From assembly GCF_000949295.1 (NCBI RefSeq), contig NZ_JXYS01000072.1, positions 1 to 48,172 of the forward strand: a DNA stretch of 48,172 bases, in the 5' to 3' direction. The translations under genes were made by a program, and so were the position numbers. The stretch's first letter is position 1, and the number at the start of each line of letters is the position of its first letter. This DNA comes from Acidithrix ferrooxidans (lineage in GTDB: Bacteria > Actinomycetota > Acidimicrobiia > Acidimicrobiales > Acidimicrobiaceae). This document shows, piece after piece, positions 5,669 to 31,044 of this stretch. The notes under the pieces were generated by a model, which was not told the origin of the DNA, made no database searches, and saw nothing but the letters and a program-made list of their open reading frames with translations.

Positions 5669-5692
5669 CTGATAACTTCCTTTTCTTGGTTT

Positions 5693-6397: not shown

Positions 6398-6434
6398 AGT
6401 TAAAGCTGGCCCTTTACCTTGGTGAAATAGTCTT

Positions 6435-8144
6435 TCAAAAGAGAAAATAGCGTTGAGCTAGAGGGAGTGACCTTGCCGGCTGTGAAGTTAGAAGCTCACC
6501 ATCGAGTCGCACTTCGTACGTTTGGGGGTTTACCTCAATATCTCCAACTCTGTCATTTAGCACCATTGCAGCTTTTGTAAGAGTCCTTGTTCCTTTGACG
6601 GGAAGTCTCTTGCGATTCGAATTTTTGAAGCTACTACCGCTGCTAAGGCTGATTTCAGAGACGAACGTGAAGCCAACCGACGATGCGGCGAGTCCCATGG
6701 ATGCAAATTGTGACTTATATAGGCGTGGCTCGGGAGTAGGTATGGACGCATTGGGATCACCACTGACAGCGCACGAAATCATTCCTGCTTTGATGATCAG
6801 TTCGGGTTTGACTCCAAAGAATGCCGGTTTCCAAAGCACCAAGTCGGCAATCTTCCCAACTTCGACGGAGCCTACATAGCTCGAGACTCCATTGGCAATG
6901 GCTGGGTTTATCGTGTATTTGGCGACGTATCGCTTTACTCGATTGTTGTCGGATCTATCGCTATCACCTTCGAGTGGACCTCTCTCTTGCTTCATTTTGT
7001 GGGCGGCTTGCCATGTCCTAATGATTACCTCACCGACCCTACCCATCGCTTGACTATCGGAGGAGATCATAGAGATTGCGCCGAGATCATGTAGAACATC
7101 CTCGGCGGCTATCGTTTCAGCTCGAATTCGAGAGTCAGCAAAGGCTATATCTTCAGCTACAGACTTGTCCAAGTGGTGACAGACCATCAGCATGTCTAGG
7201 TGCTCTTCTATGGTGTTGAGGGTATAGGGTCGTGTTGGATTTGTACTAGAGGGAAGAAAATTTGAAAGGCCGGCAACCTTTATGATGTCGGGCGCGTGGC
7301 CACCACCGGCACCCTCGGTGTGGAAGGCATGGATGGTTCGACCTGATACGGCATTTATCGTCTCTTCGACAAAGCCACTTTCATTCAGGGTATCCGTATG
7401 AATTGCAACCTGAACGTCCATCTCGTCGGCGACATCTAGACAGGTGGAGATGGCCCTAGGTGTAGACCCCCAGTCCTCGTGCAACTTGAGACCCATAGCC
7501 CCGGCGATAACTTGTTCTCGCAGCGCCTCGTGTGACGATGAATTTCCTTTGCCCATGAAGCCCACGTTGATCGGTTGATCTTCGAATGCCTCGATCATGC
7601 GGGCCATATACCAGGCTCCGGGTGTCACCGTTGTTGCGTTTGTCCCAGTAGCCGGACCGGTTCCGCCTCCTATCATGGTTGTAATGCCAGATGAGACTGC
7701 GGCTTGGATCTGATCTGCAGATATGAAATGTATGTGAGAGTCGATTCCGCCTGCGGTGAGAATCATTTTTTCTCCGGCGATTATCTCTGTGCTCGCACCG
7801 ATTTCAATCGTGACACCTTTGGAGACGAGAGAGTTTCCCGCGCTTCCGATCGCTAAAATCAAGCCATCTCGGATAGCGATGTCAGCTTTATAAATTCCAC
7901 TGTGGTCCAGAATTAGCACATTGGTGATGACAAGATCTGGCGCACCCATTGAGCGTGTAATGATTGGGTTCTGACCCATTGAATCACGGATGGTCTTACC
8001 GCCGCCGAATTTGGCCTCTTCGCCCTTGGTCGTTAGATCTTTTTCCACCTCTACGATGAGGTCGGTATCGCCCAAGCGCACTCGGTCGCCTGTTGTGGGT
8101 CCGTAATGACTGACATAGATTGATCTAGGGATTGAACTTGCCAT
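6435..8144 (-). CDS. ureC: Urease alpha subunit (catalytic)
   Basis: This is the catalytic subunit hydrolysing urea to ammonia and carbamate at a bi-nickel centre. All active-site landmarks are visible in the 569-residue chain: SHIHFI (nickel ligands), [12 protein letters not shown] with the lysine that is carbamylated, [29 protein letters not shown] (mobile flap and catalytic histidine) and [12 protein letters not shown] (nickel-ligand aspartate). Length matches the bacterial alpha subunit. It starts at the ATG at 8144, only 5 bp after the ureB stop, so translation is probably coupled. Nothing suggests inactivation. Confidence 0.98.
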
Positions 8145-10888: not shown

Positions 10889-11584
10889 TCATTCAATGCC
10901 AAAGAATGCTTCTTTTAGCGTGTCGTTATTGTTGAAGTCACTTACTGATCCAGTAAATCTCGTTTTTCCACCTTCAATAACACTTACCGTATCGGCGATA
11001 CTTAGGAAAGATATGTTTTGTTCTGCTATGACGAGAGTTATCCCGCCTCTGAGTTCTGCAAGACGTTCGATTACTTCGTTTACGTACCTCGGAGAAAGGC
11101 CTGACGAAGGTTCATCCATCAGCAGAATCTTAGGTTCGGATATTAACGCGCGCCCGATTCCGACTAGCTTTCGCTGTCCACCTGATAGTCCTCCAGCGAG
11201 TGACTTTCTGCGTTCTTTGAGTTCAGGGAATCGTTCGTAGATGTTGTCGATTTGATCACCGACTGATTTCGTCTTGGTGCGCAAGGAACCCAAGCGGAGA
11301 TTTTCTTCGACGCTCAAATCAGGGAAGATTCCCTGTTCGCTCATGTAGCCAAGACCGTGTTTTACACGTTCGGCAACAGCTAGAGGGGCAATGTTAGTGC
11401 CATTCATCTTCAAGTCACCGGACCACAGAGGCAGTAAGCCGATCGCTACTTTTAGAAAGGTGGATTTACCCGCACCGTTCGCTCCTAGGACGACTTGGAT
11501 CTCATTTTCTTTAACGCTCAGGCTTATATCCCATAGCACTTGCATCGAACCGTAACCGGACGTTAACTGTGACACCTCAAGCAT
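10889..11584 (-). CDS. livF: HAAT-type ABC transporter ATPase, LivF-like (cluster 1)
   Basis: Second ATPase of a branched-chain amino acid/amide (HAAT) importer. Motifs: Walker A GANGAGKST, signature LSGGQRKLVGIGRAL, Walker B KILLMDEPSSGLSP and the switch histidine replaced by Q in VIAEQN, as is usual in LivF. The GTG at 11593 is a possible start, but the ATG at 11584 has a far better ribosome site (GGGAGG 8 bp upstream), giving 231 residues. It overlaps the livG end by a few bases, indicating translational coupling. It is the last gene of the five-gene operon. Substrate is not predictable from the ATPase. Confidence 0.93.
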   Translation of the reverse strand: MLEVSQLTSGYGSMQVLWDISLSVKENEIQVVLGANGAGKSTFLKVAIGLLPLWSGDLKMNGTNIAPLAVAERVKHGLGYMSEQGIFPDLSVEENLRLGSLRTKTKSVGDQIDNIYERFPELKERRKSLAGGLSGGQRKLVGIGRALISEPKILLMDEPSSGLSPRYVNEVIERLAELRGGITLVIAEQNISFLSIADTVSVIEGGKTRFTGSVSDFNNNDTLKEAFFGIE

Positions 11585-12296
11585 CGTGTGCACCTCCCAG
11601 AAAGACCCGCTTTACCTCTTCGTCTGAGAGCGCGTCGCGAAGGGATCCAGAAAAGATGCCTTTGCCTGCGCTTAGAACAAAGACCGAATCGACAACTTGC
11701 TCTAAAAATCCCATTAAGTGTTCCACGACGATAAGCGCTATACCATTTTGTCGAAAGTTGGCTAACATCTCGGCAACTTCGGTTAGCTCTGTCGGAGTTA
11801 ATCCGGCTGCTAGTTCATCAACAAAGATTACTTTGGGATCTAGTGCTAGTGCCCGAGCTAGATCCAGCCTTTTTTGCTGAGAGGCTGTTAGCTTTTCAAT
11901 CGGATAATTTGCGCAATCGGCCAAGTTGACTTTTCTTAAGATTTCTGGGATCGATGTCCGGTTTTTGGAGTGGATCGAGGAGACCGCCACGTTCTCATAG
12001 ACTGAAAGGTCTCGGAAAGGTTTTGGTATCTGAAAGGTTCGATTTATCCCGGCTCTCGCAATGTCATGAGGGCGTTTCCCTGTGATATTTAGGCCTTCTA
12101 AGGTTATGTGACCGTGCGCAGGCTTATAGAGTCCACAAACCGTGTTTACCAGTGTTGTTTTCCCTGAGCCGTTGGGTCCAACCAGGCCTAAGGCTTGACC
12201 TTGGAAGAGTTCTAGAGATACATCGTTAAGTGCCTTAAATCCGCTAAATATGGTCGTAAGATTTTCGATCTTTAGAAGACTTTTCGATTCAGTCAT
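11577..12296 (-). CDS. livG: HAAT-type ABC transporter ATPase, LivG-like (cluster 1)
   Basis: First ATPase of the HAAT importer, 239 residues. It has Walker A GPNGSGKTT, a TASQQKRLDLARALA signature (LTASQQKR in place of the usual LSYGQQ/LSGGQ), Walker B KVIFVDELAAGLTP and the switch VVEHLM. NRTFQIPKPF is the typical LivG Q-loop. The Walker B reads DEL where most LivG proteins have DEP, a mild oddity. The ATG at 12296 overlaps the livM stop by 8 bp (ATGACTGA). With LivF it forms the nucleotide-binding heterodimer. Confidence 0.93.
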   Translation of the reverse strand: MTESKSLLKIENLTTIFSGFKALNDVSLELFQGQALGLVGPNGSGKTTLVNTVCGLYKPAHGHITLEGLNITGKRPHDIARAGINRTFQIPKPFRDLSVYENVAVSSIHSKNRTSIPEILRKVNLADCANYPIEKLTASQQKRLDLARALALDPKVIFVDELAAGLTPTELTEVAEMLANFRQNGIALIVVEHLMGFLEQVVDSVFVLSAGKGIFSGSLRDALSDEEVKRVFLGGAHDA

Positions 12297-13275
12297 TTTT
12301 TGCCCTGACCGTGGTGATTTTTGTAGTGATGTAGTTCCAAAAGCCAGCTAGCCCTCGGGGTGCAAAAAGGACCAAAAGTACGATTACCATTCCGTAGATT
12401 AGCTGGAAGTATTGTGGATTTGAAACCCCAATTGCGTTATAGATCGCATATAGAACGACCGTGCCAATCGTCGGACCCCAAATGGTTCCAACACCACCGA
12501 ATAGGGCGAAAACGATAGCTAGCACTGAGAGGGCCGGGTCGAACACTGCTTGGGGATAGAAGACGCTTGTCGACCAGCCAAAGACACTGCCTGCCATACC
12601 TGCTATGGCAGCTGCGATTAACCATGCATAGAATCTTTGGCGCGGTACGTTCACTCCAGCCATTGATGCCGAATATGAGTCGTCACGGATCGCCTTGAGC
12701 GTCAACCCGAATTTCGAAGAGCGCACAAAGCTTGTAGCAAGTATCGATAAGGCTGCTAAGGCTATAGCGGTTCCATATGCCGTTCCAGAGGAGTAAAAAC
12801 CTGCTAGGTTGAGGCCGTATGGCCCATTCGTAATCGACTGGAGGGAGGGGTTGGAGATTATCGTGTAGATCGCTTCGCTGGCTGCTAGAGTTCCAATCGC
12901 GAAATAGGCCCCACGTAATCTAAATAATGGTAACAAGATTGCACCTACAAGTGCTCCCGCTACGCCGCCAATGATAACGGCTAGTACCGGGGGAACGTTA
13001 TAATCCAGCATTACAAGGCCAGAGGCATAAGCTCCGACTCCGAAAAAGCCGAAATAGCCAAATGGCAGGTATCCAGTGAATCCATAGATGATATTGATTC
13101 CTTGGGCGAGCGCAATGTAAATTGCCATGTAAGTTAGGAGCAGTTCGTTCGAATAGAGGTGGACACCTACGGCAAATGCAACGATTGGCACCAATGCTGC
13201 AATCGCTGGAGAGATCAGTTTCTTTCCCTTTGATCCTGTCTCTAATGTCAGATCTAGATCATCTAATTTAGGCAA
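12289..13275 (-). CDS. livM: HAAT-type ABC transporter permease, LivM-like (cluster 1)
   Basis: A 328-residue polytopic permease of the LivM family. It shows IIYGFTGYLPFGYFGFFGVGAY-type N-terminal segment, the LRGAYFAIGTLA motif, and the cytoplasmic EAA-like loop GLTLKAIRDDSYSASMAGV followed by the C-terminal GGVGTIWGP segment. Roughly eight to ten membrane spans are visible. The start is TTG at 13275, embedded in the livH stop (TTGCCTAA), with AAGAAGG upstream; a cytoplasmic tail of about 25 residues precedes the first span. Confidence 0.92.
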   Translation of the reverse strand: MPKLDDLDLTLETGSKGKKLISPAIAALVPIVAFAVGVHLYSNELLLTYMAIYIALAQGINIIYGFTGYLPFGYFGFFGVGAYASGLVMLDYNVPPVLAVIIGGVAGALVGAILLPLFRLRGAYFAIGTLAASEAIYTIISNPSLQSITNGPYGLNLAGFYSSGTAYGTAIALAALSILATSFVRSSKFGLTLKAIRDDSYSASMAGVNVPRQRFYAWLIAAAIAGMAGSVFGWSTSVFYPQAVFDPALSVLAIVFALFGGVGTIWGPTIGTVVLYAIYNAIGVSNPQYFQLIYGMVIVLLVLFAPRGLAGFWNYITTKITTVRAKND

Positions 13276-14146
13276 TTCTCTGCCTTCTTCCGAATAAGCC
13301 TTGAGGCCTAATGAGCATTGTGGCGATGACTAATGCATAGGGTACAAGGTTTGACCAGCTAGGAATGTAGACCTGAGCCAATTGGTAAAAGATTCCGAAG
13401 ATGATTCCTGCTGCGATCGTTCCCAATGTGTTTCCTAAAGATCCAAAGACGATGATTGCAAAGGCAGTAATTGTAATTGCAGCACCTTCGGTAGGACTGA
13501 CTCCGCCAAATATAAATACTCCCCAGACTCCAGCACAAGCTGCAAGTGCAAAGCCGATTCCAAAGTAGATACCGGAGACTCTTTTAGAATTTATTCCAGC
13601 TACTGCGGCCTCAACGGAGTCGGAGATGACGGCCCTTACCTGAAGGCCGATAGATGTGCGATAGAGAAAGATCACAAATATTGCCAGTAGTGGAATGATG
13701 ACTAAAGCGCTCACCCACCAGGTGGCTGGGTAGCCTTGACCAAAGAGCACTAGGCGAGATGTTGGTATCGACGAGACTGGCAAAGATCTTTCAGCACTTC
13801 CAAAGACGAGCGAGGCCAGTGCCTGGATGACCTCTGAAAGGCCGAAGAACAGAATCAACGAAAGCATTTCGGGATCTGAAGCTTTTACGAGGCGTGGTGC
13901 GATCAATCGATTCAATAGATAGCCAAAGAGTACGGTTATTGGAATTACTATTATGGTCGAAAGTATCGGTGAGATGTGGTAGGTATTGTAGAGTTCCCAG
14001 GCACCATATCCGCCGAGCATTATGATGTCGCCATGTGCGAGATTGATTATCTTCTGCGCACCGTAAACGACATTTAATCCCACAGCCAATAACGCATAAA
14101 AAATGCCTAGGAGAATACCGCCTATAACGGCGTATTCGAAGAGCAC
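13268..14146 (-). CDS. livH: HAAT-type ABC transporter permease, LivH-like (cluster 1)
   Basis: A 292-residue permease of the LivH family. The N-terminus has the typical GLNVVYGAQKIINLAHGDI-like pattern (G-N-VYG-----NLAHGD--MLG), and the C-terminal half has TSIGLQVRAVISDSVEAAVAGI (EAA-like loop) and FGSLGNTLGTIAAG. About eight membrane spans. The GTG at 14146 has AAAGGAA 7 bp upstream. It follows the binding-protein gene with an 83-bp gap that contains a strong hairpin. Confidence 0.93.
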   Translation of the reverse strand: MLFEYAVIGGILLGIFYALLAVGLNVVYGAQKIINLAHGDIIMLGGYGAWELYNTYHISPILSTIIVIPITVLFGYLLNRLIAPRLVKASDPEMLSLILFFGLSEVIQALASLVFGSAERSLPVSSIPTSRLVLFGQGYPATWWVSALVIIPLLAIFVIFLYRTSIGLQVRAVISDSVEAAVAGINSKRVSGIYFGIGFALAACAGVWGVFIFGGVSPTEGAAITITAFAIIVFGSLGNTLGTIAAGIIFGIFYQLAQVYIPSWSNLVPYALVIATMLIRPQGLFGRRQRIA

Positions 14147-14169
14147 AGATTTTTCCTTTACTTATACGA

Positions 14170-14222
14170 AAATAGCCACCGCACTAGCTGTCAAAGTGAC
14201 AAGCATGGAGCGGTGGCTATTT
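14170..14222 (-). terminator. Two-tier hairpin between binding-protein and permease genes
   Basis: AAATAGCCACCGC at 14170-14182 pairs perfectly (13 bp) with 14210-14222, and the loop holds a second hairpin TGTCA-AAG-TGACA. On the minus strand it sits between the binding-protein stop and the livH start and is followed by TTTTC. This is the usual position of a partial terminator or mRNA-stabilising hairpin that lets the binding protein be made in excess over the permeases. Confidence 0.7.
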
Positions 14223-14229
14223 AGGGGAA

Positions 14230-15513
14230 TTAACCTACAGGAGCAGGGTAGACGGCAGAGCCGGTGGCTTGGCTGGCAGGATAGACGGCTTTGAGTGTGA
14301 TTCCGCTGCTTGATGGGAAGAGCTGTGCTACTGGAAGAAGTTCGCCAGTTTGAGCTCCCTCTGAATTTATGACGAAGTTCCCATTAAGTGTGTTCAAATG
14401 GCCAGATGCCGCAGCCGCTCCGGCGCGTATATCGGTTTGTGAGAGTGACTTAGCATTTTTTAGCGAAGCTTGAATTACAAGTCCTGTATTGTATCCATCT
14501 AACGACAGCGAGTTTAGCTGACCAGGGAATGCAGCAGCGAATTGCGTCTTGAATTGGGAGCTATTTAGTCCCTCGGATACCGTTGGATAATTGACATAGA
14601 AGTTGGTTCCATAGGTGTAGGTGTATGCCAAACCTGCGGTTCCTACCTGTTGCTGGAAGAGACTCAGTAGCTGCCCTGGAAAGACGGTAAATACCATCTT
14701 GAAGTGCATCCCGGAGCTCTGAACGTTTTGAAGGAACGGAGTGTCATTGGCTGCGTAACCGAACTCTAGAACCGCATCTGGCTTGGATGCCGAGATCGTT
14801 TGCAGGAGTGTACCGTAGCTTGTGGTAGATGATGGTACACCTTGGTAGTATGCGACATTGATTCCGTTTTGCGAGAGGATGCTCTTTAGGGTGGTCGCCT
14901 GCGAAGCATCGAAATCGTTGGTTCCATAGAGTACTGCAAGGTTCTTGATCTGCTTGGAGATGAGGAATTTTGCTAACACGTTGGGCCAAATGGAAGATTC
15001 GGGTAGATCAGTCAGAACTATGTATTTATTTTGTGGTGTGAAAAATGGAATGCCGGTACCAGTTTGGTCGAAGAGTACGACCTTATGAGCTTGAGCCAAG
15101 GAGACAGCTGGAGCAGTCAACACTGATCCAAAGTCTGAGACAAAGATATTAACTTTATCTTGAGTTAAAAGCTGATTGTAGAGAGTTGCAGCAGTGGTAG
15201 CTGAACTTAAGTCGTTGTATGCGATGAGCTTTAGCGGAATTCTTTTCTTATATCCACCAACGTAAACACCACCTTTTGCGTTCTCGGTTTTGATCCAAAA
15301 CTTAAGGCCGGCTAATTCCGGCAGTGATGAAGTGGCGAACGATCCAGAACCCGAATAGGTAGTACCGACGGTGATCTGGGCTGGTGCAGCCGGCAGGTTA
15401 GACGCGCTAGTGCCCGAACTGCCCGAGCTAGAAGACGATGTGGAAGATGATCCGCATGCTGCTAATGCTATACCGAATGATGCGGCAATCACTGGAAATG
15501 TTTTTTTACGCAA
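14230..15513 (-). CDS. HAAT-type substrate-binding lipoprotein (cluster 1)
   Basis: The 427-residue product starts with a lipoprotein signal (MRKKTFPVIAASFGIALAAC, lipobox LAAC, cysteine 20) followed by a Ser/Gly/Thr-rich linker, then a type-I periplasmic-binding fold of the Peripla_BP_6 (LivJ/LivK) kind beginning ITVGTTYSGSGSF. The start is TTG at 15513 with AAAGGGGA 8 bp upstream. It is the first gene of the operon. The nearby urease operon makes urea or an amide a tempting ligand. However, the protein does not look like the canonical UrtA group to me, so the ligand is open: branched-chain amino acid, urea, short amide or aromatic acid. Confidence 0.9.
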   Translation of the reverse strand: MRKKTFPVIAASFGIALAACGSSSTSSSSSGSSGTSASNLPAAPAQITVGTTYSGSGSFATSSLPELAGLKFWIKTENAKGGVYVGGYKKRIPLKLIAYNDLSSATTAATLYNQLLTQDKVNIFVSDFGSVLTAPAVSLAQAHKVVLFDQTGTGIPFFTPQNKYIVLTDLPESSIWPNVLAKFLISKQIKNLAVLYGTNDFDASQATTLKSILSQNGINVAYYQGVPSSTTSYGTLLQTISASKPDAVLEFGYAANDTPFLQNVQSSGMHFKMVFTVFPGQLLSLFQQQVGTAGLAYTYTYGTNFYVNYPTVSEGLNSSQFKTQFAAAFPGQLNSLSLDGYNTGLVIQASLKNAKSLSQTDIRAGAAAASGHLNTLNGNFVINSEGAQTGELLPVAQLFPSSSGITLKAVYPASQATGSAVYPAPVG

Positions 15514-21067: not shown

Positions 21068-21253
21068 CTGAATCACTTTTGTGCTTCATTGAAAAAAGAG
21101 CTCGTCAAAGGATAAGTTTTGTACACCAGAGAGGAGGCGAGAACGGAGATATTTGATTGGATCCAATGGTATAACCGGAAAAGAAGACATTTACGTATTG
21201 GTGATATTTCACCAACTGAGTTCGAAAGGTCAGCTATGTTGAAAGCTGCGTAG
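21068..21253 (+). pseudogene. IS3-family transposase (OrfB) C-terminal remnant
   Basis: The plus strand reads as the end of an IS3-type integrase-core transposase: LNHFCASLKKELVKG, an in-frame TAA at 21113, then VLYTREEARTEIFDWIQW, YNRKRRHLRIGDISPTEFE and a stop at 21251. The LKKEL and WYNRKRRH-----SP-EFE motifs are the conserved DDE-domain C-terminus of IS3/IS150-type OrfB. The rest of the gene, OrfA and clear terminal repeats are missing. This is a dead fragment. Confidence 0.85.
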
Positions 21254-21643: not shown

Positions 21644-21815
21644 TGTCCCAACAAAAGACTACATACCCAACTAGCTGGGAGAATAGGTTGAGTGACGGTA
21701 AGTTGGGTTAACATACGAGTAAATGCTTGGAAATACCTATCTCAAATAGCCGAACGTGAACCCAATCTTTGGGCTCAATGGTCATTTGGGGTAATACCAA
21801 AAGTCGGTTCGCTAG

Positions 21816-21885
21816 GAGCCGTGTGAATTGAGATGTTCACGCACGGTTCTGTGAGTTATGCGGCTAATCCGAGTCCGGACTTAGC
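21816..21885 (+). ncRNA. Group II intron domain V (and likely domain VI) remnant
   Basis: Positions 21816-21849 form a textbook 34-nt domain V. The lower stem is GAGCCGTG/CACGGTTC with the catalytic AGC near its 5' end. A bulge ACG lies on the 3' side, and the upper stem is capped by the GNRA loop GAGA. It is followed by a domain-VI-like hairpin, GCTAATCCG (21863-21871) pairing with CGGA and TTAGC (21876-21885). I do not see the branch-point bulged A with confidence. No reverse transcriptase/maturase frame exists anywhere nearby, so this is a 3' remnant of an intron or an ORF-less intron whose 5' end I could not define. DNA from about 21660 upstream may belong to its other domains. Confidence 0.75.
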
Positions 21886-22458: not shown

Positions 22459-23011
22459 TGTTAGTCTGAGTACCACAAACCCAAAAGAGCACTCACATCC
22501 CCAGTATCCTGCACAAACTCTCGGAGTTTCCTCACCCCAACAACCGTTGATACTAATTATTAGCCACATAAAAGGAGAGCGGGGAGGGGAAGTTCCTCCC
22601 CGTCAATCGACAAAGGGATATCAAACCGGCACAAGCTGCGTTGGTAAAGAGCGCAGGTAATGAGCGTTGTGTTCAAAAGGCGGAGATGCCTCCCTTGGGT
22701 AAGTACTACGAAGATGCGCGAAAACAAACCATCCGATGACGCACAAAGGAAATTATCAATAATGACACTAGGAGACAATTGATTAGGTCGCTATACCCAA
22801 AATTAGATTTCAGAATCTAAAAAAGTGACCAAGAAGGCTCAATCGCAAAGGGAATAGGTCTTATTTGACTCTCTGAAACCAGATTTGGGCCATAGATGCT
22901 TTGTCAAACCTAATTCAGTTCCAAATAACCGACGCAGAGTTACGCCGAAGGGCTCGAGCTGGTCTACTTCTGTTGATTAAGACTTGATTGGAGACCAGCC
23001 GCCTTGGTTGG
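22459..23011. other. Gene-free tail of the decayed region
   Basis: About 550 bp upstream of the response-regulator stop codon. Short frames here have no family resemblance and no ribosome sites. No further transposase fragment is recognisable. Confidence 0.5.
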
Positions 23012-23716
23012 TTATTTGGCCCACTCATAAAGGTGCTCAGGTCGCCCACTTGCCCCATATTTGAGAGTGAGATTTACCTTGCCTAATCTGGCTAGGTACG
23101 CTAAGTAGCGCTGAGTGGTACTTCTTGAGAGGCCGGATCTACGTGCTATTTCGTCTGCAGTGAGTCTTTCATCAACCGCCCTCAGCGTCGACATTACAAC
23201 TTCTAGGGTGTGGGGAGAATGGCCCTTTGGCAGATTGACTTCGTCTGGTGCTGTCCGAAGCACCGACCAAAGGCGATCGATTTGTGCTTGGTCGAGATCG
23301 CTTGATGCGTCAAATTCCGCTCTCATGAGGCGGTACGCCTGGAGTCTTTCACTTAATCCACGTGAGTCAAAAGGCTTAGTAATGTAGTGTATCGCACCAC
23401 ATTTCATCGCTTCTCGGACGCTAGCACTGTCGCGGGCAGCGCTAATGACTATGACGTCTGGACGGGGAGGATCCATCGCTCTTAGCTGCCTTAAGACCGT
23501 TAATCCATCAGTATCTGGCAGATAGAGATCAAGCAGAACTAAATCTGGAGATAGATCCTTTGCGGCCGAGACTGCTAGAGCTCCTGTGTTTGCAAATCCA
23601 CAGGTTTCGAAATCCTCCAATCGGTCGACATATGCGCCATGAAGCTGGGCGACGCGGAAGTCGTCGTCTACTACGAGAATTCGGATCTTTGTCCCTTGTA
23701 AACTTTCCTCGGTCAT
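23012..23716 (-). CDS. CitB/DcuR-type response regulator
   Basis: A 234-residue cytoplasmic response regulator. Receiver domain (about 10-125): acidic pocket VVDDD (15-19), phospho-acceptor aspartate 63 in LLDLYLPD, the VISAARD strand and the lysine of ITKPFD. The C-terminal part (about 175-234) has the winged-helix of the CitB/DcuR/DpiA group: LTADEIARRSGLSRSTTQRY followed by LARLGKV. A longer frame to 23812 exists, but the ATG at 23716 has an excellent AGGAG site and begins right before the receiver. It follows the sensor kinase gene by 153 bp on the same strand. The neighbouring divergent HAAT transporter is the likely target. Confidence 0.92.
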   Translation of the reverse strand: MTEESLQGTKIRILVVDDDFRVAQLHGAYVDRLEDFETCGFANTGALAVSAAKDLSPDLVLLDLYLPDTDGLTVLRQLRAMDPPRPDVIVISAARDSASVREAMKCGAIHYITKPFDSRGLSERLQAYRLMRAEFDASSDLDQAQIDRLWSVLRTAPDEVNLPKGHSPHTLEVVMSTLRAVDERLTADEIARRSGLSRSTTQRYLAYLARLGKVNLTLKYGASGRPEHLYEWAK

Positions 23717-23869
23717 GGAAGCTCCTACCTTGGCGATCTCTTCGTGAATTAAAACTTTGACCACTACTGTAATATTTGGCCAAAGTGCTTTTGGGGCGAT
23801 CATCTTTGGCACTATTGCCTTGAAGTGGAAGTCTTACTGTAAATCTTTAGTTATTTTGATTTTTATGGT

Positions 23870-25594
23870 TCAATCCATTGGACCGATCCTTTCGGCAGCG
23901 CTGTCAATGGCGCTATGAAGAGTAACGCTAAAAGATGCGCCTGGAACGTTCTTTACTTGAACTTCGCCATTATATTTAGCGGCGATTTGAGCCACGAGAG
24001 CTAATCCTAGGCCTCGTCGGTAACCTCTGCCTGCCACTTTGGTGGAAAATCCATCCGTGAAGATTGAGCTTAGGAGTGCCATGGGAATTCCTAAGCCACT
24101 GTCAGTTACGGTTATGTAGATTTTCTCTTCGACGGCTTCTATGTGAAGTTCGATCCATTTGGGATCGTTTTCCATTTGGTATGGATTTGTGTGCTCGGTG
24201 CTCGACAAGACGGCGTCTAGGGCGTTGTCGATTAAATTTCCAACGATTGTCAATATATCCAACGAATTTCGAAGAGTTCCATGAACCTTAGTTGCATTGG
24301 TTACCACCAAGGTGACACCTCGTTCTGAGGTAACTGCGCCCTTGGCCAGGATCAGAGCTCGCAAAAGAGGGTCGTCGATGGCGTCAATCCGATCGTTTGT
24401 AAGGTTACTCCTCGACGAGATGTTGAGGGCAAAGTCGATTGCTTCTTCGGATTCCCCAAGTTCTATAAGTCCAACAATGGTATGCATTTTGTTCGAGAAT
24501 TCGTGGGCTTGCGCCCGAAGGGCTTCTGTCATTCCAACCATGCCGTCGAGTTCACGAAGTAGCCCCTCCCATTCGGTCCGATCCTGAATGGTTATAACGT
24601 GACCAAGGTTTTGGCCGTCGCGTTCAACCGCTAGGCGGGAGATCGAAAGGATGGATCGGCCAACTACCACTGGAAGGTCTCGACCGGGAATTTCTCCGGT
24701 TACAATTTGGCGAAGACGCCGCCCTCGGACGAGGTGTCGTAGAGGTCTTCCAATTGATCTCTCGGGGATCCCTATCAACCGTCGTGCTTCTTGGTTGAAA
24801 AATCTTATTAGTCCATTGGCGTCGCAGGCTATTACGCCTTCAGAGATGCCTTTTAGGAGCGCTTCTTGTTCTTGAAGCAGAGACGATAGTTCAATACTAG
24901 TGAGTCCGAAGGTCTCGGCTAGGTTGCGGCGATAGAGATACCACAGACTGAGGGTTGTGAGTGCTGCGACGAATAGGAATGCAAAGACGATCTTTGAAAA
25001 TACAAACTTCAAATAAGAGTAAAGGCGTTGGCGTGTGGCGACTATTTCAACTATCGCCACCTGTCTGGTATGCCTATTAGATAGCGCGAAATATGAAAAA
25101 TTTATAAGGGTAGTCGGATTGAGGTTTTTGGCACAGAATGATAGTCCGAGATTCGGACTTTGGTAAGGGAGGTTGCTGAGGTTTTGCGCGTGGTTAGAGG
25201 GGAAGATGGGTACAGCTGTTGCTGAAAGTGGGCTCGACGTAGGGGCGGATCCTGTTGCTGTCGCCTTTGTCGTGAGATAGGACGGAAAAAAAACAAAGGT
25301 TAAGTTTTCTATTTTACAAAGGCTCTTTAGCTCATCTCTGGTCTGGCGCGTAATTTCGACCTTGGTGTTATTTGTTGAGGTTCCATCTCCAATCGAACCG
25401 AGAGACTCAAGTATCGCTTTGGATCGATCGATCGATATGGTTGTTAGTCGTAGCTCGGTCGACGATTCGGTCAAGACTAAAAGAGCACCGATCGCCACGG
25501 TGATGGTCATCGTCAGTACGAATGCATAGATCGCGATTTGACGGATGGAACTTGTATTGGATCTGGTGCTCAAGGACAAAAGACCCCCTGACAT
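23870..25594 (-). CDS. CitA/DcuS-type sensor histidine kinase
   Basis: A 574-residue membrane kinase. Spans at about 21-41 and 203-221 enclose an extracytoplasmic sensor of about 160 residues. This is presumably the PDC/sCache fold of this family, with an unusual Ser/Thr/Pro-rich stretch at 108-128 and two cysteines (93 and 154) that could form a disulfide. A PAS domain follows (about 240-340, EGVIACDANGLIRFFNQEA). The DHp motif LRAQAHEFSNKMHTI with histidine 364 matches CitA/DcuS (LRAQ-HEF-NKLH-I). The ATPase domain has NLIDNALDAV, DSGLGIP and GRGYRRGLGLALV. Family members sense citrate, C4-dicarboxylates or similar small acids. Divergent from the second HAAT transporter. Confidence 0.94.
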   Translation of the reverse strand: MSGGLLSLSTRSNTSSIRQIAIYAFVLTMTITVAIGALLVLTESSTELRLTTISIDRSKAILESLGSIGDGTSTNNTKVEITRQTRDELKSLCKIENLTFVFFPSYLTTKATATGSAPTSSPLSATAVPIFPSNHAQNLSNLPYQSPNLGLSFCAKNLNPTTLINFSYFALSNRHTRQVAIVEIVATRQRLYSYLKFVFSKIVFAFLFVAALTTLSLWYLYRRNLAETFGLTSIELSSLLQEQEALLKGISEGVIACDANGLIRFFNQEARRLIGIPERSIGRPLRHLVRGRRLRQIVTGEIPGRDLPVVVGRSILSISRLAVERDGQNLGHVITIQDRTEWEGLLRELDGMVGMTEALRAQAHEFSNKMHTIVGLIELGESEEAIDFALNISSRSNLTNDRIDAIDDPLLRALILAKGAVTSERGVTLVVTNATKVHGTLRNSLDILTIVGNLIDNALDAVLSSTEHTNPYQMENDPKWIELHIEAVEEKIYITVTDSGLGIPMALLSSIFTDGFSTKVAGRGYRRGLGLALVAQIAAKYNGEVQVKNVPGASFSVTLHSAIDSAAERIGPMD

Positions 25595-25664
25595 TGTCTT
25601 TTTGAACCTTCAGATATATACAAACTAGCCCTTTGAACCAAGAAGAACAGCGCCGATCCCTCAT

Positions 25665-25719
25665 GGGATTTATGGGATAAATAGCTTTATTTGGGATTAT
25701 CTGGTTAATTCGAAATTAA
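25665..25719. promoter_or_regulatory. Candidate operator boxes between kinase and transporter genes
   Basis: Two tandem boxes, GGGATTTAT (25665-25673) and GGGATAAAT (25674-25682), are followed by GGGATTAT (25693-25700) and then the dyad TTAATT-CGA-AATTAA (25705-25719). They sit in the 311-bp divergent promoter region. DcuR/CitB-family regulators bind AT-rich direct repeats, so these are reasonable response-regulator sites. This is inference from position and repetition. Confidence 0.45.
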
Positions 25720-25757
25720 TATCGGCTGGGAATTGCCTGGATGTAGATTCTTACCTA

Positions 25758-25806
25758 CTGCCGCGAGGTGTACCGGGGGATGGTCATCTCGAATAAAAAA
25801 CGGCAG
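25758..25806 (+). promoter_or_regulatory. Candidate structured 5' leader of the second transporter operon
   Basis: CTGCCG (25758-25763) pairs with CGGCAG (25801-25806), and GAGGTG (25765-25770) pairs with CATCTC (25785-25790). A further ACC/GGT extension is capped by a G-rich loop. The two helices are separated by 1 base on one side and an A-rich 10-base bulge (GAATAAAAAA) on the other. It lies about 100 bp before the permease start on the sense strand. It resembles no riboswitch I can name. Confidence 0.4.
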
Positions 25807-25905
25807 AGGAAATGTCTGCAATTGGGGGGTTGTTTTGCTTTTGTGCAATCATGTCTCGGTTTCGGGCTACAAATTAGATGCTTTTGCATATCTAAGGAGT
25901 AGTCG

Positions 25906-26781
25906 GTGAAACTATTCTTACTCACATTAGGTTTCGGCTTTGTTTCGGCTTCAATCTATGCCCTTTTGAGTGTTGGCTTGTCGCTCCAATTTGGTGTTAC
26001 AAACTTCGTCAATTTCGCCTATGGGGCGTATCTGGGCGTCGGAATGCTTTTGACCTATACATTTTCAGCCACGCTTGGGTTGCCATTTTGGCTCTCTATC
26101 GTTCTGGCGACAATTGGTACTGGAATAGTTTCCATGCTGATATCGGAGTTCATCCTAAGTCCGTTTGTCAAGCGGCGAAAATCTCTCTTTTACATGTTGA
26201 TCGTGACCTTTGGCCTCTCTCTCATTCTCGACAACGTCTTACAGATCATCTACGGAGTCGGCTTCAACGAATATCCCATAGGTCAGTCCTCGCCTGTTAC
26301 CATTGGCCCCTTTAGCTTCACAGGCAACCAATTGATCATAATTGCGATTGCTGGAATTGTCATGATCGGAGTTCATCTCCTGCTCTCTCGTTCACGATTG
26401 GGCAAGGCTATGCGAGCGATGAGTGATAACGCTGATCTAGCTAGAGCATCTGGAATCGATACCAACATGGTAACTCGTTGGACTTGGTTTATCAGTGGGG
26501 CTCTTGCGGGTCTGGGTGGTATTGTCCTGGCGTTGAATATCGTCTCATTTCAAACGACTAGCGGGGATGCACTGCTCTTTGTCATCTTTGCAGCCGTTAT
26601 TCTTGGCGGAATTGGTCAAACCTACGGGGCTATGCTTGGTGCGTTGATAATTGGCGTAGTGACAGAGGTGTCCACGGTCTTTATATCTTCTGCGTACAAG
26701 CAGGACATTGCATTTTTGGTTCTCGTGATCATGCTTTTGGTACGTCCTCAAGGGTTGATTCCTGCAAAAGGAAAAGCCTAA
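25906..26781 (+). CDS. livH: HAAT-type ABC transporter permease, LivH-like (cluster 2)
   Basis: A 291-residue polytopic permease. It opens with the LivH pattern SIYALLSVGLSLQFGVTNFV followed by NFAYGAYLGVGM, and carries SRLGKAMRAMSDNADLARASG (EAA-like loop contacting the ATPases) and GGIGQTYGAMLGALIIG. It starts at GTG 25906 with AAGGAG 7 bp upstream. First gene of the five-gene operon downstream of the candidate leader. Unlike cluster 1, the binding-protein gene is last, not first. Confidence 0.93.
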   Translation: MKLFLLTLGFGFVSASIYALLSVGLSLQFGVTNFVNFAYGAYLGVGMLLTYTFSATLGLPFWLSIVLATIGTGIVSMLISEFILSPFVKRRKSLFYMLIVTFGLSLILDNVLQIIYGVGFNEYPIGQSSPVTIGPFSFTGNQLIIIAIAGIVMIGVHLLLSRSRLGKAMRAMSDNADLARASGIDTNMVTRWTWFISGALAGLGGIVLALNIVSFQTTSGDALLFVIFAAVILGGIGQTYGAMLGALIIGVVTEVSTVFISSAYKQDIAFLVLVIMLLVRPQGLIPAKGKA

Positions 26782-26927
26782 CCTAGCGACTCCTTTGGAT
26801 GACGATTGATTCGAAATCCATGGGCCATGATGGAACCCAAACCCTTCATATCACAACGTTGGTTTCTCTTTTTATCTTATTTCTACTTCGACCACGGTGA
26901 GAAATTCTTACACATAGGAGTTGGTTT

Positions 26928-27953
26928 ATGTCAATTTTTCTCGGGTATGTGGCAACCATATTGGTTACCTTGTTTACCTACAATATCTTTACCCTGGGCC
27001 TCAATATCCAATTCGGTTATGCCGGGATCTTGAACTTTACGGTTATTACCTTTATGGCAATGGGTGCCTACTTCTACGCAGTCTTCGTAATGCCCCCAGC
27101 AAATGCTTCAAATCAGGTCTTTTATATCCTTGGTTTACACTGGCCCTGGCCCCTTGCTTCGATTGCGGGAATAGTTGCCTCGGGAATCCTTGGCTATCTA
27201 ATTGGTCTGATAGCGCTAAAGCGACTTCGATCTGACTACCTGGCAATTGTTACCCTGGCAACGGGAACTCTTCTCTATGGGCTATCTGGCGATCAGAATA
27301 AACTCTTTGATGGTTGGGCTGGGCTATTTTCGGTAAATCAACCTTTTCAAAGTGTGGCTAACAACCACCCGAACACCTTCTCTTGGATCTTTGTGGTTAT
27401 CTCTGGAGTGGTGATGCTAATCGTTTGGTGGTTTGCCAATCAGCTCTACTCATCACCGTTGGGACGTTCGATGCGTGCAATCCGTGAGGACCAAGACGTG
27501 GTGGACGCCTTTGGAAAAAATACCTTCAAGGTTCGAATGATGGCGATGGTAATAGGTTCTACCATCGTAGGAATCGGAGGAGTGCTTACGATTCAGTACA
27601 TTGGAGCACTTTCACCTGCTGGATGGACCACTGGGGAGACCTTTGTAGTCTGGGCTGCGCTGTTGGTCGGCGGTCGTGGGAACAATATTGGCGCGATGCT
27701 CGGTTCTTTGTTGGTTGCTGTGATCTTCAACGAGGGAACTAGATATATTCCCCAAGTGGCATCTAGCCCTAACCTGGTTCCTGATCTTCGTAACATAATT
27801 ATTGGCTCGTTGGTTATTTTGAGCATCTGGTTTAGACCTCAAGGTGTACTTCCGGAACGTAAGGCCAAGTTTTTCGAACTTCCCCTGAAGGATAAGTATG
27901 CCCAAACCTTTGGTGGAGTAAGCGCGAATCAAGAGTTAGCGACGGAGGTCTAG
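26928..27953 (+). CDS. livM: HAAT-type ABC transporter permease, LivM-like (cluster 2)
   Basis: A 341-residue permease with LivM landmarks: LGLNIQFGYAGILNF near the N-terminus, LRSDYLAIVTLATGTLL, the EAA-like loop GRSMRAIREDQDVVDAFGKN, and GGRGNNIGAMLGSLL near the C-terminus. The ATG at 26928 has AGGAG upstream. A 146-bp spacer separates it from livH. It ends one base before the livG start codon, so the two are tightly coupled. Confidence 0.93.
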   Translation: MSIFLGYVATILVTLFTYNIFTLGLNIQFGYAGILNFTVITFMAMGAYFYAVFVMPPANASNQVFYILGLHWPWPLASIAGIVASGILGYLIGLIALKRLRSDYLAIVTLATGTLLYGLSGDQNKLFDGWAGLFSVNQPFQSVANNHPNTFSWIFVVISGVVMLIVWWFANQLYSSPLGRSMRAIREDQDVVDAFGKNTFKVRMMAMVIGSTIVGIGGVLTIQYIGALSPAGWTTGETFVVWAALLVGGRGNNIGAMLGSLLVAVIFNEGTRYIPQVASSPNLVPDLRNIIIGSLVILSIWFRPQGVLPERKAKFFELPLKDKYAQTFGGVSANQELATEV

Positions 27954-28739
27954 ATGAGTAATATTTTAGCGATCTCGGATGTCCATGTGGCATTTGGTGG
28001 GCTGAAGGCGATCGATGGATGCACCTTTGAGGTAGAAAAGGGTACAATTACTGCCCTGATTGGTCCGAATGGTGCAGGAAAGTCAACCATGGTTGGCTCA
28101 ATTGCCGGAGCCGTTTCTCTTACTTCTGGTTCGATTACCTTCGACGGGCAAGAGATATCACACCTGCCCACATATAGGCGAGCTCAAGGCGGATTGATAA
28201 GGACCTATCAGATTTCACGGGAGTTCGGAGGGATGACCGTTCTTGAGAATTTGCTTGTTGTCCGGCTCGGACAGAGCGGAGAAAGCCTAATTAATGCGGT
28301 CTTTCGGCCGAAGAAATCTAAGACTGAAACCAATGCACTTGTAGGCGAAGCCAACGAAATCCTAAATACTTTTGGTCTTTACCGACTGCGCAATGAGTAT
28401 GCATCGAATCTTTCGGGTGGCCAAAAGCGACTTCTGGAGCTTTCTCGAGCAGTGATGGCCAAACCAAAGATGCTTCTTTTGGATGAGCCAATGGCAGGCG
28501 TAACGCCCGCTCTTATTGAAATCCTTGGACAACACTTACTGGACCTAAATAAGGGTTCAGGCATGTCAATGTTGCTTGTTGAACACAACCTAGAGGTTGT
28601 AGACAAAATCTGTTCGAGGGTCGTGGTTATGGCGACCGGAAAACGTCTTGCTGAGGGAACTTTGGCTGAGCTGCGTTCGAATCGTGACGTTGTCGAGGCT
28701 TATTTGGGAGGTGAAGTTCATGAGCGTATTGGAAGTTAA
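27954..28739 (+). CDS. livG: HAAT-type ABC transporter ATPase, LivG-like (cluster 2)
   Basis: A 261-residue ATPase with Walker A GPNGAGKST, Q-loop IRTYQISREFGG, signature LSGGQKRLLELSRAVM, Walker B KMLLLDEPMAGVTP and switch LLVEHNLEVV. The start ATG directly abuts the livM stop with GGAGG 6 bp upstream. It overlaps livF by 20 bp. Here the Walker B is the canonical DEP, unlike the cluster 1 paralogue. Confidence 0.94.
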   Translation: MSNILAISDVHVAFGGLKAIDGCTFEVEKGTITALIGPNGAGKSTMVGSIAGAVSLTSGSITFDGQEISHLPTYRRAQGGLIRTYQISREFGGMTVLENLLVVRLGQSGESLINAVFRPKKSKTETNALVGEANEILNTFGLYRLRNEYASNLSGGQKRLLELSRAVMAKPKMLLLDEPMAGVTPALIEILGQHLLDLNKGSGMSMLLVEHNLEVVDKICSRVVVMATGKRLAEGTLAELRSNRDVVEAYLGGEVHERIGS

Positions 28740-29460
28740 AGGACTTAGCGGAGGGTACGGGAAGACCCCAATTATTTGGGAAGTATCCATGGAGGCCAAG
28801 GTCGGCCAGGTGGTTAGTATTGTTGGGCCAAATGGCGCTGGTAAGTCAACCTTCATGAAGTCCCTGTTCGGGATTACAGACGTGACCGGCGGCGAAGTGG
28901 TACTCGATGGCCAGAACGTCAAGGGACTGCCTTCATTTCGGTTGGCTCGCGCGGGTATGGCTTATGTGCCCCAAGTTGACAATATCTTTACGACCATGAC
29001 GATCAAAGAGAACCTGGAGATGGGTGGATACTCCAACCGACGGGGACTGGCTCAGCGAGTAGAGGTTGTGCTTGAGATCTTTCCAGACCTCAAGGCTGCT
29101 CAGAACAGAAAAGGCGGAGAGCTTTCGGGCGGACAGCGAAATATGTTGGGTATGGCCCGAGCGCTCATGGCCGATCCCAAGGTGCTGCTACTCGATGAGC
29201 CCACGGCGGGACTTTCGCCTATCTACGTCGACGTAGTCTGGGATCAGGTCGGCCGCATCGCTAAGACTGGCACCGCAATTGTGGTGATTGAACAAAATGT
29301 TGATCGGGCCATCTCGAACTCGGAATGGGTATACGTCCTTGTGGCTGGGCGAAATCGACTCGACGGCCCTGCAAGTCAGGTGGCAGCACTTGACCTGGGC
29401 GAAATTTTCTTGGGTGCGACAGCAGCAGCCATGGAGTCAGAGAGCGAGGTGATCGCCTAG
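28720..29460 (+). CDS. livF: HAAT-type ABC transporter ATPase, LivF-like (cluster 2)
   Basis: A 246-residue ATPase beginning MSVLEVKGLSGGYGK. Motifs: Walker A GPNGAGKST, signature LSGGQRNMLGMARAL, Walker B KVLLLDEPTAGLSP and VVIEQNVDRA. The frame extends further upstream, but the ATG at 28720 has a clear GGGAGGTGA site and begins right at the family start, overlapping livG by 20 bp. It completes the nucleotide-binding pair of transporter 2. Confidence 0.94.
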   Translation: MSVLEVKGLSGGYGKTPIIWEVSMEAKVGQVVSIVGPNGAGKSTFMKSLFGITDVTGGEVVLDGQNVKGLPSFRLARAGMAYVPQVDNIFTTMTIKENLEMGGYSNRRGLAQRVEVVLEIFPDLKAAQNRKGGELSGGQRNMLGMARALMADPKVLLLDEPTAGLSPIYVDVVWDQVGRIAKTGTAIVVIEQNVDRAISNSEWVYVLVAGRNRLDGPASQVAALDLGEIFLGATAAAMESESEVIA

Positions 29461-29652
29461 CAATAGATGGGGCAGTTTTGGGGGATTCCGTTGCTTATGG
29501 TTTGAGCGATGGACAAAGTTTTAAGGCTACTTGGGGATCGTGTGATTTCATCTCTAATGGAGAGTTTCGATTTCGGTAGCTTCATTTCAGTAGTTTCAAT
29601 GATCTCATCAAATTAACTGATGATCAGTATTTGGATAAAAAAGGGGGTACCC

Positions 29653-30936
29653 GTGAAGGGTATTAAAAAGTGGGTAAAAGCGACGGCAGCACTGGCATCG
29701 CTATCTATGGTGGCAGCGGCTTGTGGGAGCGGCTCTCCATCATCATCATCATCATCGGCTACGACAGCGGCATCAACGGGCCCGCTTACAGTCGGGGAGC
29801 TCCTGCCTATGTCTGGGGCAGAGGCGTTCGTCGGTCAGTGGTTTGATCATGGGATCAAAGCTGGTGTCTATGAGATAAATCACCATGGCGGAGTACTTGG
29901 CCATCAACTTACTACGGCACTTCAAGATACTGCGGGCGACCCAGTAGATGCAGTAACAGCGTGGAAGTCGCTTCAGTTACAACATCCAAATTTTGTAACC
30001 GGGCCGAGCTCTCTATCGATCATGGGCGTTATCAATCAGTTCCAACAACAAAAAGTGGTGGACCTCATGGAAGGTGGTACAACTCAGTTGGACCACATGA
30101 CGCAGTCATATATCTATAGAGTTTTCCCATCTGACTCAGTGCTATTGGCAGCAGAGGCCTATTATGCCCTCAAAGGTTTGAATTGCACAAAGGCATCGCT
30201 AATTTACACCTCCGATGCAAACGCCCAGGCCGAAGTTCCTCCTTTGACTGCAGCCTTCACCGGTAATGGTGGGAAGATCTTGGACAACGAGCAGATTCAG
30301 GCCGGCCAGAGCTCGTATCTCTCTGAGGTATCTCGCGCATTTGCGAATAACCCACAGTGTGTATTTTTCCATGCCGATCCACAGACTGCCGCAACTCTGT
30401 TCGCGAACGTAAAGCAGCTCGGTCACCTGAATGTTCACTTTATTACTGGTGATACCGGTACCTCTATTCAGCTAGCACAAGCTGTCGGCCTAGCCGATGC
30501 CAGCAAGTGGATGACAGGTATGGCTGCGCCAGCAGCGTACGCACCGGCATATAATGAGTTTTTAGCAGCCTATAAGGGGCAATGGAATAGCTCTAAGCCA
30601 CTGCCAGCATCACCAGCTATGTATGATGCGGTTGTTATGGCGGCGTTGGCAATGACAGCTGCACATTCCACTAATCCACATGTTTGGGTGAAGTATATTA
30701 CCAAGATTAGCAACCCGCCAGGCACGCCTGTTTATACATATGCACAGGGTGTGGCACTGCTAAAGCAAGGTAAGAAGATCAACTACCAGGGTGCGAGTGG
30801 TCCTGAGAATTTCAATCAGTATCACAACGTCTTTTCTGGCTTTGACGTTCAGCAATTCAATACGGCCGGTGTGTTGCATACAGTCCAAAGTATTACCTCT
30901 AGCCAAGTGGCAGCTATGTACAACTCCAAGGGTTAA
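29653..30936 (+). CDS. HAAT-type substrate-binding lipoprotein (cluster 2)
   Basis: The 427-residue lipoprotein starts at GTG 29653 (AAGGGGG just upstream); an ATG at 29620 in the same frame would add 11 residues before the signal peptide and is less likely. The signal peptide ends in a lipobox VAAAC, followed by a serine run encoded by repeated TCA codons. The mature part is a Peripla_BP_6 type-I binding fold (LTVGELLPMSGAEAFVGQ, INHHGGVLG, then GDTGTSIQLAQAVG). The ligand is unknown; the CitA-like sensor next door suggests a small carboxylate or amide. A 190-bp gap separates it from livF, so it may have its own promoter. A strong terminator follows. Confidence 0.92.
   Translation: MKGIKKWVKATAALASLSMVAAACGSGSPSSSSSSATTAASTGPLTVGELLPMSGAEAFVGQWFDHGIKAGVYEINHHGGVLGHQLTTALQDTAGDPVDAVTAWKSLQLQHPNFVTGPSSLSIMGVINQFQQQKVVDLMEGGTTQLDHMTQSYIYRVFPSDSVLLAAEAYYALKGLNCTKASLIYTSDANAQAEVPPLTAAFTGNGGKILDNEQIQAGQSSYLSEVSRAFANNPQCVFFHADPQTAATLFANVKQLGHLNVHFITGDTGTSIQLAQAVGLADASKWMTGMAAPAAYAPAYNEFLAAYKGQWNSSKPLPASPAMYDAVVMAALAMTAAHSTNPHVWVKYITKISNPPGTPVYTYAQGVALLKQGKKINYQGASGPENFNQYHNVFSGFDVQQFNTAGVLHTVQSITSSQVAAMYNSKG
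29738..29756 (+). repeat. CAT/TCA trinucleotide repeat in the lipoprotein linker
   Basis: Six tandem CAT units (read in frame as TCA serine codons) encode the flexible serine linker just after the lipid-anchored cysteine. Repeat slippage would change linker length in steps of one residue without breaking the frame. Confidence 0.8.
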
Positions 30937-31006
30937 CCAATGAGTTGTCTTGATTTCCTATAATGCACTTAGCTTTTAGGAATTAGTGTTCTCCCCCGAG
31001 AAGCAG

Positions 31007-31044
31007 CGTCGGCCAAATCCACTTGGATTTGGCCGACGTTTTTT
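31007..31044 (+). terminator. Rho-independent terminator of transporter cluster 2
   Basis: A perfect 14-bp GC-rich stem (31007-31020 with 31025-31038), loop ACTT, followed directly by TTTTTT. It lies 71 bp after the binding-protein stop codon. Textbook intrinsic terminator. Confidence 0.95.

Follow-up and report, generated by a model that had tools for sequence, protein, structure and literature searches.

The two-component system, the importer and their relatives

Positions 23012-31044 of a 48,172-nucleotide stretch of Acidithrix ferrooxidans DNA (the window, one contig of a 4.02-Mb draft genome) carry a two-component system and a divergently oriented importer of the HAAT type, separated by an intergenic region with a direct repeat that we predict to be the operator of the response regulator. 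In agreement with the preliminary description of this DNA, a CitA/DcuS-type sensor histidine kinase (23870-25594, minus strand) and a CitB/DcuR-type response regulator (23012-23716, minus strand) stand divergent from livH-livM-livG-livF and a terminal binding-protein gene (25906-30936, plus strand); all genes of the module are open and in place in a check of the window's open reading frames (ORFs), and all match their families.

The kinase comprises a first transmembrane helix (TM1), an extracytoplasmic sensor, a second transmembrane helix (TM2), a PAS domain, the phosphoacceptor box HEFSNKMH and a HATPase domain, where the two helices are apparent from hydropathy and the PAS domain is cytoplasmic. 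With a box of the form HEFxNxxH and a CitA/DcuS-like HATPase core it belongs to the HPK5 type. Pfam detected HATPase_c, one PAS match and, below threshold, SPOB_a, and the PAS domain is closest in the PDB to those of CitA and DcuS (5fq1, 8bjp and 2w0n). The best NCBIfam model, DcuS/MalK, matches residues 173-557 only, with 214.5 bits (2.2e-63) against a curated cutoff of 520. The regulator combines a receiver with a CitB-type helix-turn-helix (HTH; Pfam Response_reg and HTH_IclR), and its best NCBIfam model, DcuR, matches residues 43-263 with 132.7 bits (1.5e-38) against a curated cutoff of 262. Its start is likely ATG 23716 rather than GTG 23812, which opens the longer ORF of 266 residues. 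The C-terminal part can be aligned with homologues linked to Tct and ABC genes.

The importer has the composition expected of the HAAT type according to Pfam: a LivH-type permease (25906-26781, GTG start) and a LivM-type permease (26928-27953), both BPD_transp_2; a LivG-type ATPase (27954-28739) and a LivF-type ATPase (28720-29460), both ABC_tran; and a substrate-binding lipoprotein (29620-30936), a Peripla_BP_6 protein with a lipobox recognized by eye and an alternative start at GTG 29653. All five lie on the plus strand. LivF probably starts at ATG 28720, the mechanical ORF opening at TTG 28648. All five proteins fall below the curated Liv and Urt cutoffs of NCBIfam (for example UrtB 134 vs 250, LivG 209 vs 362). 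Because the kinase, the regulator and the importer proteins all score below the cutoff of their best model, we refer to them as CitA/DcuS-type, CitB/DcuR-type and HAAT-type, and assign no named orthologue. The solved structure closest in sequence to the binding protein is 4nqr, an amino acid/amide HAAT protein (E 4.6e-9); a structure model of the protein itself (pLDDT 50) is too poor for use. The intra-operon gaps at 26782-26927 (livH-livM) and 29461-29619 (livF-binding protein) are long and could harbour internal promoters or processing sites.

We evaluated conservation of this arrangement in a family set of 42 genomes, with a threshold of E ≤1e-20 for the kinase and at least 60% identity for orthologues of the binding protein. 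The kinase is present in 20 of the 42 genomes and the binding protein in 24, and all 20 kinase genomes are among those 24. In 15 of the 20, the kinase is adjacent to and divergent from livH, with a separation of 2.8 kb in one of them (G533). In G014, kinase and livH share a strand, and an IS3-like transposase frame, recognized by eye, splits the kinase from the regulator; in the one-contig genome L021 (10387-14179), an IS3-like transposase frame lies between kinase and regulator, and the C-terminus of the kinase is unlike that of its relatives. A kinase match at 1e-20 is present in 3 of 148 genomes of the class, and one at 1e-40 in 32 of 396 genomes of a phylum sample. Of forty stretches fetched from the phylum, 39 surround less close, non-family kinases and one surrounds a match to the binding protein (L073). 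None of the 39 kinase loci has LivH or LivM at 1e-4, and 13 of them have TctC or TctA.

A profile search of contigs from about 85,000 species with an alignment of 15 kinases returned 230 relatives, the best 80 of which were retained. Among these 80, LivH or LivM is near the kinase at 23 loci, several of which come from the same metagenome-assembled genomes (MAGs) as the family search, so that the two counts overlap. A non-HAAT ABC ATPase, 24-35% like LivG/LivF, is close to and divergent from the kinase at 43 loci, Tct genes are present at one, and 13 have neither HAAT genes nor another ABC ATPase nor Tct genes. The kinase-regulator-transporter neighbourhood on which the preliminary description depended is thus conserved, and the family tally and the 80-locus scan together rule out chance co-location of kinase and HAAT genes. 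For this branch, the contrast it had drawn with systems that control secondary carriers is overstated, in view of the 43 and the single Tct locus among the best 80, yet Tct genes do accompany the less close kinases of the phylum sample. Since many relatives of the window's kinase adjoin ABC importers, its pairing with an importer is less unusual than had been supposed. The position of the binding-protein gene at the end of the operon, also pointed out earlier, recurs in all 21 HAAT loci where the gene is visible; the contigs of the remaining two end before it.

Two of the loci with other ABC genes were checked with Pfam. In L191 (Streptomyces) the divergent neighbours are an ATPase, a BPD_transp_1 permease and an NMT1 binding protein, and in L177 (Chloroflexi) an NMT1 binding protein is found beside the kinase, which by these domain matches makes both importers NitT/TauT-type. 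In L177, a Peripla_BP_6 binding protein of HAAT type (5363-6637, minus strand) follows the NMT1-type gene beside the related kinase. A maximum-likelihood tree was computed from 98 kinase cores, and the tool flagged long branches in it, including L182 and G526. In this tree the window's kinase and its closest relatives form one branch (100/100), hereafter the window clade. Every kinase of the tree that is linked to HAAT genes falls within one fork of 39 rows (99/94), which also holds six kinases beside other ABC importers, and this mixture implies that the type of importer changed at least once. The tree fits one regulator-operator cassette that, depending on the lineage, has come to serve either HAAT or other ABC importers.

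The direct repeat and other elements of the window

The proposed operator occupies 25665-25701 (plus strand) in the region between kinase and importer genes, 205-241 bp upstream of livH. It consists of GGGATTTAT GGGATAAAT with a period of 9, a degenerate unit and then GGGATTATC at 25693. Upstream of livH in the window and its close relatives, the arrangement is GGGATTTAT-GGGATAAAT or near it (period 9), followed by a degenerate unit and a further GGGATTAT, and the form of the repeat in the window clade is GGGATTWAT-GGGANNAA. In the 42 family genomes, GGGATTWATGGGANNAA has nine exact copies, one in each of nine genomes and all just upstream of livH, and its reversed control has none; four more genomes (G508, G510, G516 and G517) are one base off this pattern.

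At the equivalent place, relatives that adjoin an ABC importer, HAAT or other, have a GMGCANAAN-GMGCANAA tandem repeat, which we call the ancestral pattern. With at most two mismatches, GMGCANAANGMGCANAA was found in 31 of the 33 loci tested out of the 43 beside other ABC importers, 26 of the matches being exact, as well as in 16 of the 17 loci with HAAT genes that are not of the window clade; shuffled controls for these tests gave 7/990 and 12/1600. As a positional control, we compared the zone before the kinase core with its surroundings in the 67 of the 80 loci that lie outside the window clade. The ancestral pattern has 48 exact matches in the 59,126 bp of the zone vs none in 1,140,303 bp of surroundings, 19 vs 1 with one mismatch, and 14 vs 14 with two. 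All 81 zone matches have one orientation, toward the importer operon; 47 of the 67 loci have an exact match and 60 a match with at most one mismatch. The loci are related by descent, so these counts are not independent events, yet the surroundings share the same descent and lack the motif. At the Tct-linked loci the pattern is weaker than at the ABC-linked ones, present with at most two mismatches in 7 of 13, all seven in the sense of tctC and none exact. Searches of the family genomes for the ancestral pattern with one mismatch were noisy (25 places, five of them upstream of livH).

The branch on which the repeat changes also shows a change in the recognition helix of the regulator. Judging by the HTH match, the segment S-R-x-T-A-Q-R-Y-L is the putative recognition helix, which in the window reads SRSTTQRYL, the diagnostic Thr being residue 233 of the 266-residue ORF. 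Of the 81 regulators from elsewhere than the window clade with a letter at this position, 79 have Ala and two Ser, whereas none of the 13 window-clade regulators has Ala (Thr in 11, Val in one and Ser in one). We read the direct repeat as the predicted operator of the regulator.

Other signals accompany the repeat upstream of livH. A near-palindromic TTAATTCGAAATTAA at 25705-25719, just 3' of the proposed operator, is identical in the window and the two closest genomes. CRP-like dyads, TGTGACGGGGATCACA and AGTGAAATTGGTCACA or close to these, were seen by eye upstream of livH in L117-L121 and L124-L128, and were not seen as such in the window; since such dyads (TGTGA-N6-TCACA or close) recur in two related groups, other control is likely too, which suggests a second input. 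In L117-L121 a short frame beginning ATGCC lies just before livH, and in most of them the GTG start of livH overlaps the stop of this frame (by eye); it possibly encodes a leader peptide coupled to livH. A generic promoter scan gave no signal above shuffled sequences.

The structured leader noted in the preliminary description is confirmed in part only. The segment 25740-25910 (plus strand) folds at z -4.0 and predictions for the two closest genomes give a similar hairpin, with a core, GTACCGGGGGATGGTC (hairpin 25758-25806, plus strand), that is identical in all three. Pairing registers drift among close genomes, as judged by eye, no alignable counterpart was seen in other clades, and Rfam gave just two chance-level matches, ruling out a known riboswitch or attenuator; the hairpin is limited to close relatives. 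The strong terminator likewise described earlier is borne out at 31005-31044 (plus strand) by a 16-bp stem followed by a T run (-31.9 kcal/mol for a 57-nt stretch, z -7.6), and is not listed by a consensus scanner.

Elsewhere in the window, a second HAAT set (10889-15513, minus strand), in which the binding-protein gene is first, lies near urease genes (ureC and ureG; 5036-8144, minus strand). Three of its five proteins have UrtB, UrtD and UrtE as their best NCBIfam models and the others LivM and a Liv-type binding protein, all below cutoffs. A role of the importer studied here in urea uptake was rejected, as the urease genes are closer to this other set and the studied one scores below the Urt cutoffs. 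Of two group II intron pieces (21814-21885 and 22586-22700, plus strand), one matches the 3' part with a score slightly below the gathering score and the other D1-D4; because the 3' part lies upstream of D1-D4 on the same strand, they look like parts of two copies. A 44-residue frame at 21119-21253 (plus strand) looks by eye like the tail of an IS3-type transposase. Rfam also matched 5_ureB_sRNA at 7700-7989 (plus strand), antisense within the urease alpha gene, a match that may reflect coding conservation only.

Proposed control of the importer and the nature of the signal

Based on these observations, we propose that kinase, regulator and importer probably constitute a regulator-importer module, in which the regulator binds the 9-bp repeats and activates livHMGF and the binding-protein gene. 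The CitA/DcuS-type kinase would take up a signal through its extracytoplasmic domain and phosphorylate the CitB/DcuR-type regulator, which in its phosphorylated form would bind the head-to-tail repeats at 25665-25701 and, as an activator rather than a repressor, would turn on the importer operon from livH to the binding-protein gene, possibly together with its own operon. Control of the operon by the regulator is backed by the presence of a conserved direct repeat in the promoter zone.

Several observations weigh against this proposal. The transporter occurs without a detected kinase in four MAGs that are 73-91% complete (G512, G513, G517 and G527), and the kinase is not beside livH in four members of the window clade, being on a different contig in G508, G509 and G516 and about 10.7 kb away in G510; the stretches upstream of these four kinases did not yield the new motif, two of the stretches being just 199-261 bases long. 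The proposed site is weak in G533 and missing in G526, and the ancestral site is absent at two mismatches in L177, L178, L182, L190 and L211 and present only with two mismatches in L184 and L186. When single upstream regions were examined, periodicity of 9 reached p ≤0.05 in just 11 of 32, and in two of the 11 (G526 and L182) the best period-9 repeat is another motif. Across the 396 phylum genomes, exact matches to the ancestral pattern are near chance (65 vs about 55 for the reversed control, a hand count), and position alone is striking, in that 13 of the 23 exact matches in kinase-bearing genomes lie within 15 kb of the kinase. The joint change of operator and helix sits on one branch and amounts to one correlated event, and Ser also occupies the diagnostic position in G535 and L187, two regulators that do not belong to the window clade and retain GAGCA-type sites, so that Ser is not sufficient for the change of site.

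The repeats could instead be the site of a different conserved regulator, one of nitrogen or carbon control, with the two-component pair linked to the importer by history only. This would accommodate the CRP-like dyads in two related groups, as well as G508, G510 and G516, where the repeat stays at livH while the kinase is elsewhere. However, the repeat tracks the two-component genes across unrelated importer types, its change coincides with that of the recognition helix, and tandem direct repeats are a known mode of binding of the citrate-family regulator MaeR (PMC5457438), and we regard a different regulator as improbable.

Within the proposed module, the nature of the signal depends on the sensor region (25016-25465, minus strand; approximately residues 44-193). 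An alignment of 14 window-clade kinases has Cys93, Pro104 and Cys154 as the sole invariant columns of this region, and the cysteine pair is missing from six aligned sister-clade kinases. The preliminary description took the kinase to report the ligand brought in by the importer. The sensor may be a diverged Cache fold that senses the imported ligand directly, a possibility to which we give somewhat less than an even chance. Sensors of the sCache_3_2 type are present in L175, which is a HAAT-linked relative, and in L191. The AlphaFold model of the window's sensor runs helix, two short strands, helix, strand, short strand, two long strands, helix, the order of elements in Cache domains, although this is a weak model (pLDDT 63.6, with the 41 residues 108-148 at very low confidence) on which no conclusion rests. 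VIA-align with this model placed sensor domains among its top rows at Z ≤7.5, inside the tool's range for common arrangements. On the other hand, Pfam found no Cache domain in the window's kinase (PF17203, threshold 0.001) or in L116, L122 and L183, and with the model as query Foldseek returned nothing at E ≤0.001. The 50 rows shown by VIA-align include no sensor chain of CitA or DcuS, an absence that by the tool's own note does not exclude one.

The lack of a Cache match and the poorly modelled residues 108-148 would also suit a kinase that responds to the importer's state or to the loaded binding protein rather than to a free small molecule, as DcuS depends on its transporter DctA; co-sensing by DctA and DcuS is published. 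The binding protein of the window is 62-65% identical to those of five sister-clade rows, despite the other type of sensor there, and 45-46% identical to those of four rows from the Cache-bearing group (L173, L175, L176 and L187). The window clade and the sister clade have conserved stretches such as GGTTQLD and DPQTA in common, which are altered in the Cache-bearing group; by analogy, such stretches presumably line the binding pocket. Four kinases are not beside the importer, however, and the sensor model is too weak for judging surfaces; we consider this reading rather unlikely. The conserved cysteines could, finally, make the sensor redox- or metal-responsive, in keeping with their invariance in all 14 window-clade sensors and with hosts that come largely from acidic, iron-rich settings. 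A structural disulfide is the ordinary reading of such a pair in an extracytoplasmic domain, and we consider a redox or metal sensor very improbable.

In the window clade, the sensor and the operator sequence have both diverged. A broader interpretation of the module, offered with less assurance than the module itself and somewhat doubtful, is that a portable sensor-regulator-operator cassette is shared among unrelated actinobacterial transporters (HAAT, NitT/TauT and, more weakly, TctABC) and keeps its 9-bp tandem operator. The window clade would then have re-coded the cassette, with a cysteine-paired sensor in place of a Cache sensor, GGGATTWAT repeats in place of GAGCANAA and one altered residue in the recognition helix, which would insulate it from its relatives.

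Related systems and significance

The kinase core, cytoplasmic PAS domain and regulator match those of the enterobacterial DcuSR and CitAB families, whose known targets are dicarboxylate or citrate functions, whereas the window's sensor domain is not recognizable as theirs. The importer shares with LivHMGF-LivJ/K and UrtABCDE the two permeases, two ATPases and Peripla_BP_6 protein, and differs in its scores below curated cutoffs, in the terminal position of the binding-protein gene and in the linked two-component system. The gluABCD amino-acid importer of Streptomyces coelicolor is not known as a HAAT importer. It adjoins and is regulated by the two-component system GluK-GluR, in which GluR, unlike the regulator here, is listed as OmpR-type (PMC9739842). 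In Corynebacterium glutamicum, CitAB is an actinobacterial pair of HPK5-type kinase and CitB-type regulator that is divergent from citH and also activates tctCBA; it differs in responding to citrate and in its carriers, CitH and TctABC, and according to a 2012 review the exact DNA-binding motif of CitB had not yet been identified (PMC3353115). A parallel in layout is MaeKR of Lactobacillus casei, of the same kinase/regulator family, where the maePE and maeKR operons diverge from a region with three tandem direct repeats to which MaeR binds; MaeKR differs in controlling a malate carrier and malic enzyme, in a MaeK without a functional ATP-binding domain and in its repeat, TTATT(A/T)AA (PMC5457438). 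A licence-limited literature search, by title and start of abstract, returned no paper on a CitA/DcuS-type system beside HAAT genes, which does not prove that there is none.

The main addition of the present analysis is a predicted operator that follows the regulator group across importer types. For CitB-type regulators of actinobacteria, a large group, this supplies a concrete operator prediction, together with what may be a natural case of operator re-coding that comes with a candidate specificity residue. Where the ligand of a HAAT importer is uncharacterised, the linked sensor offers a way to find it.

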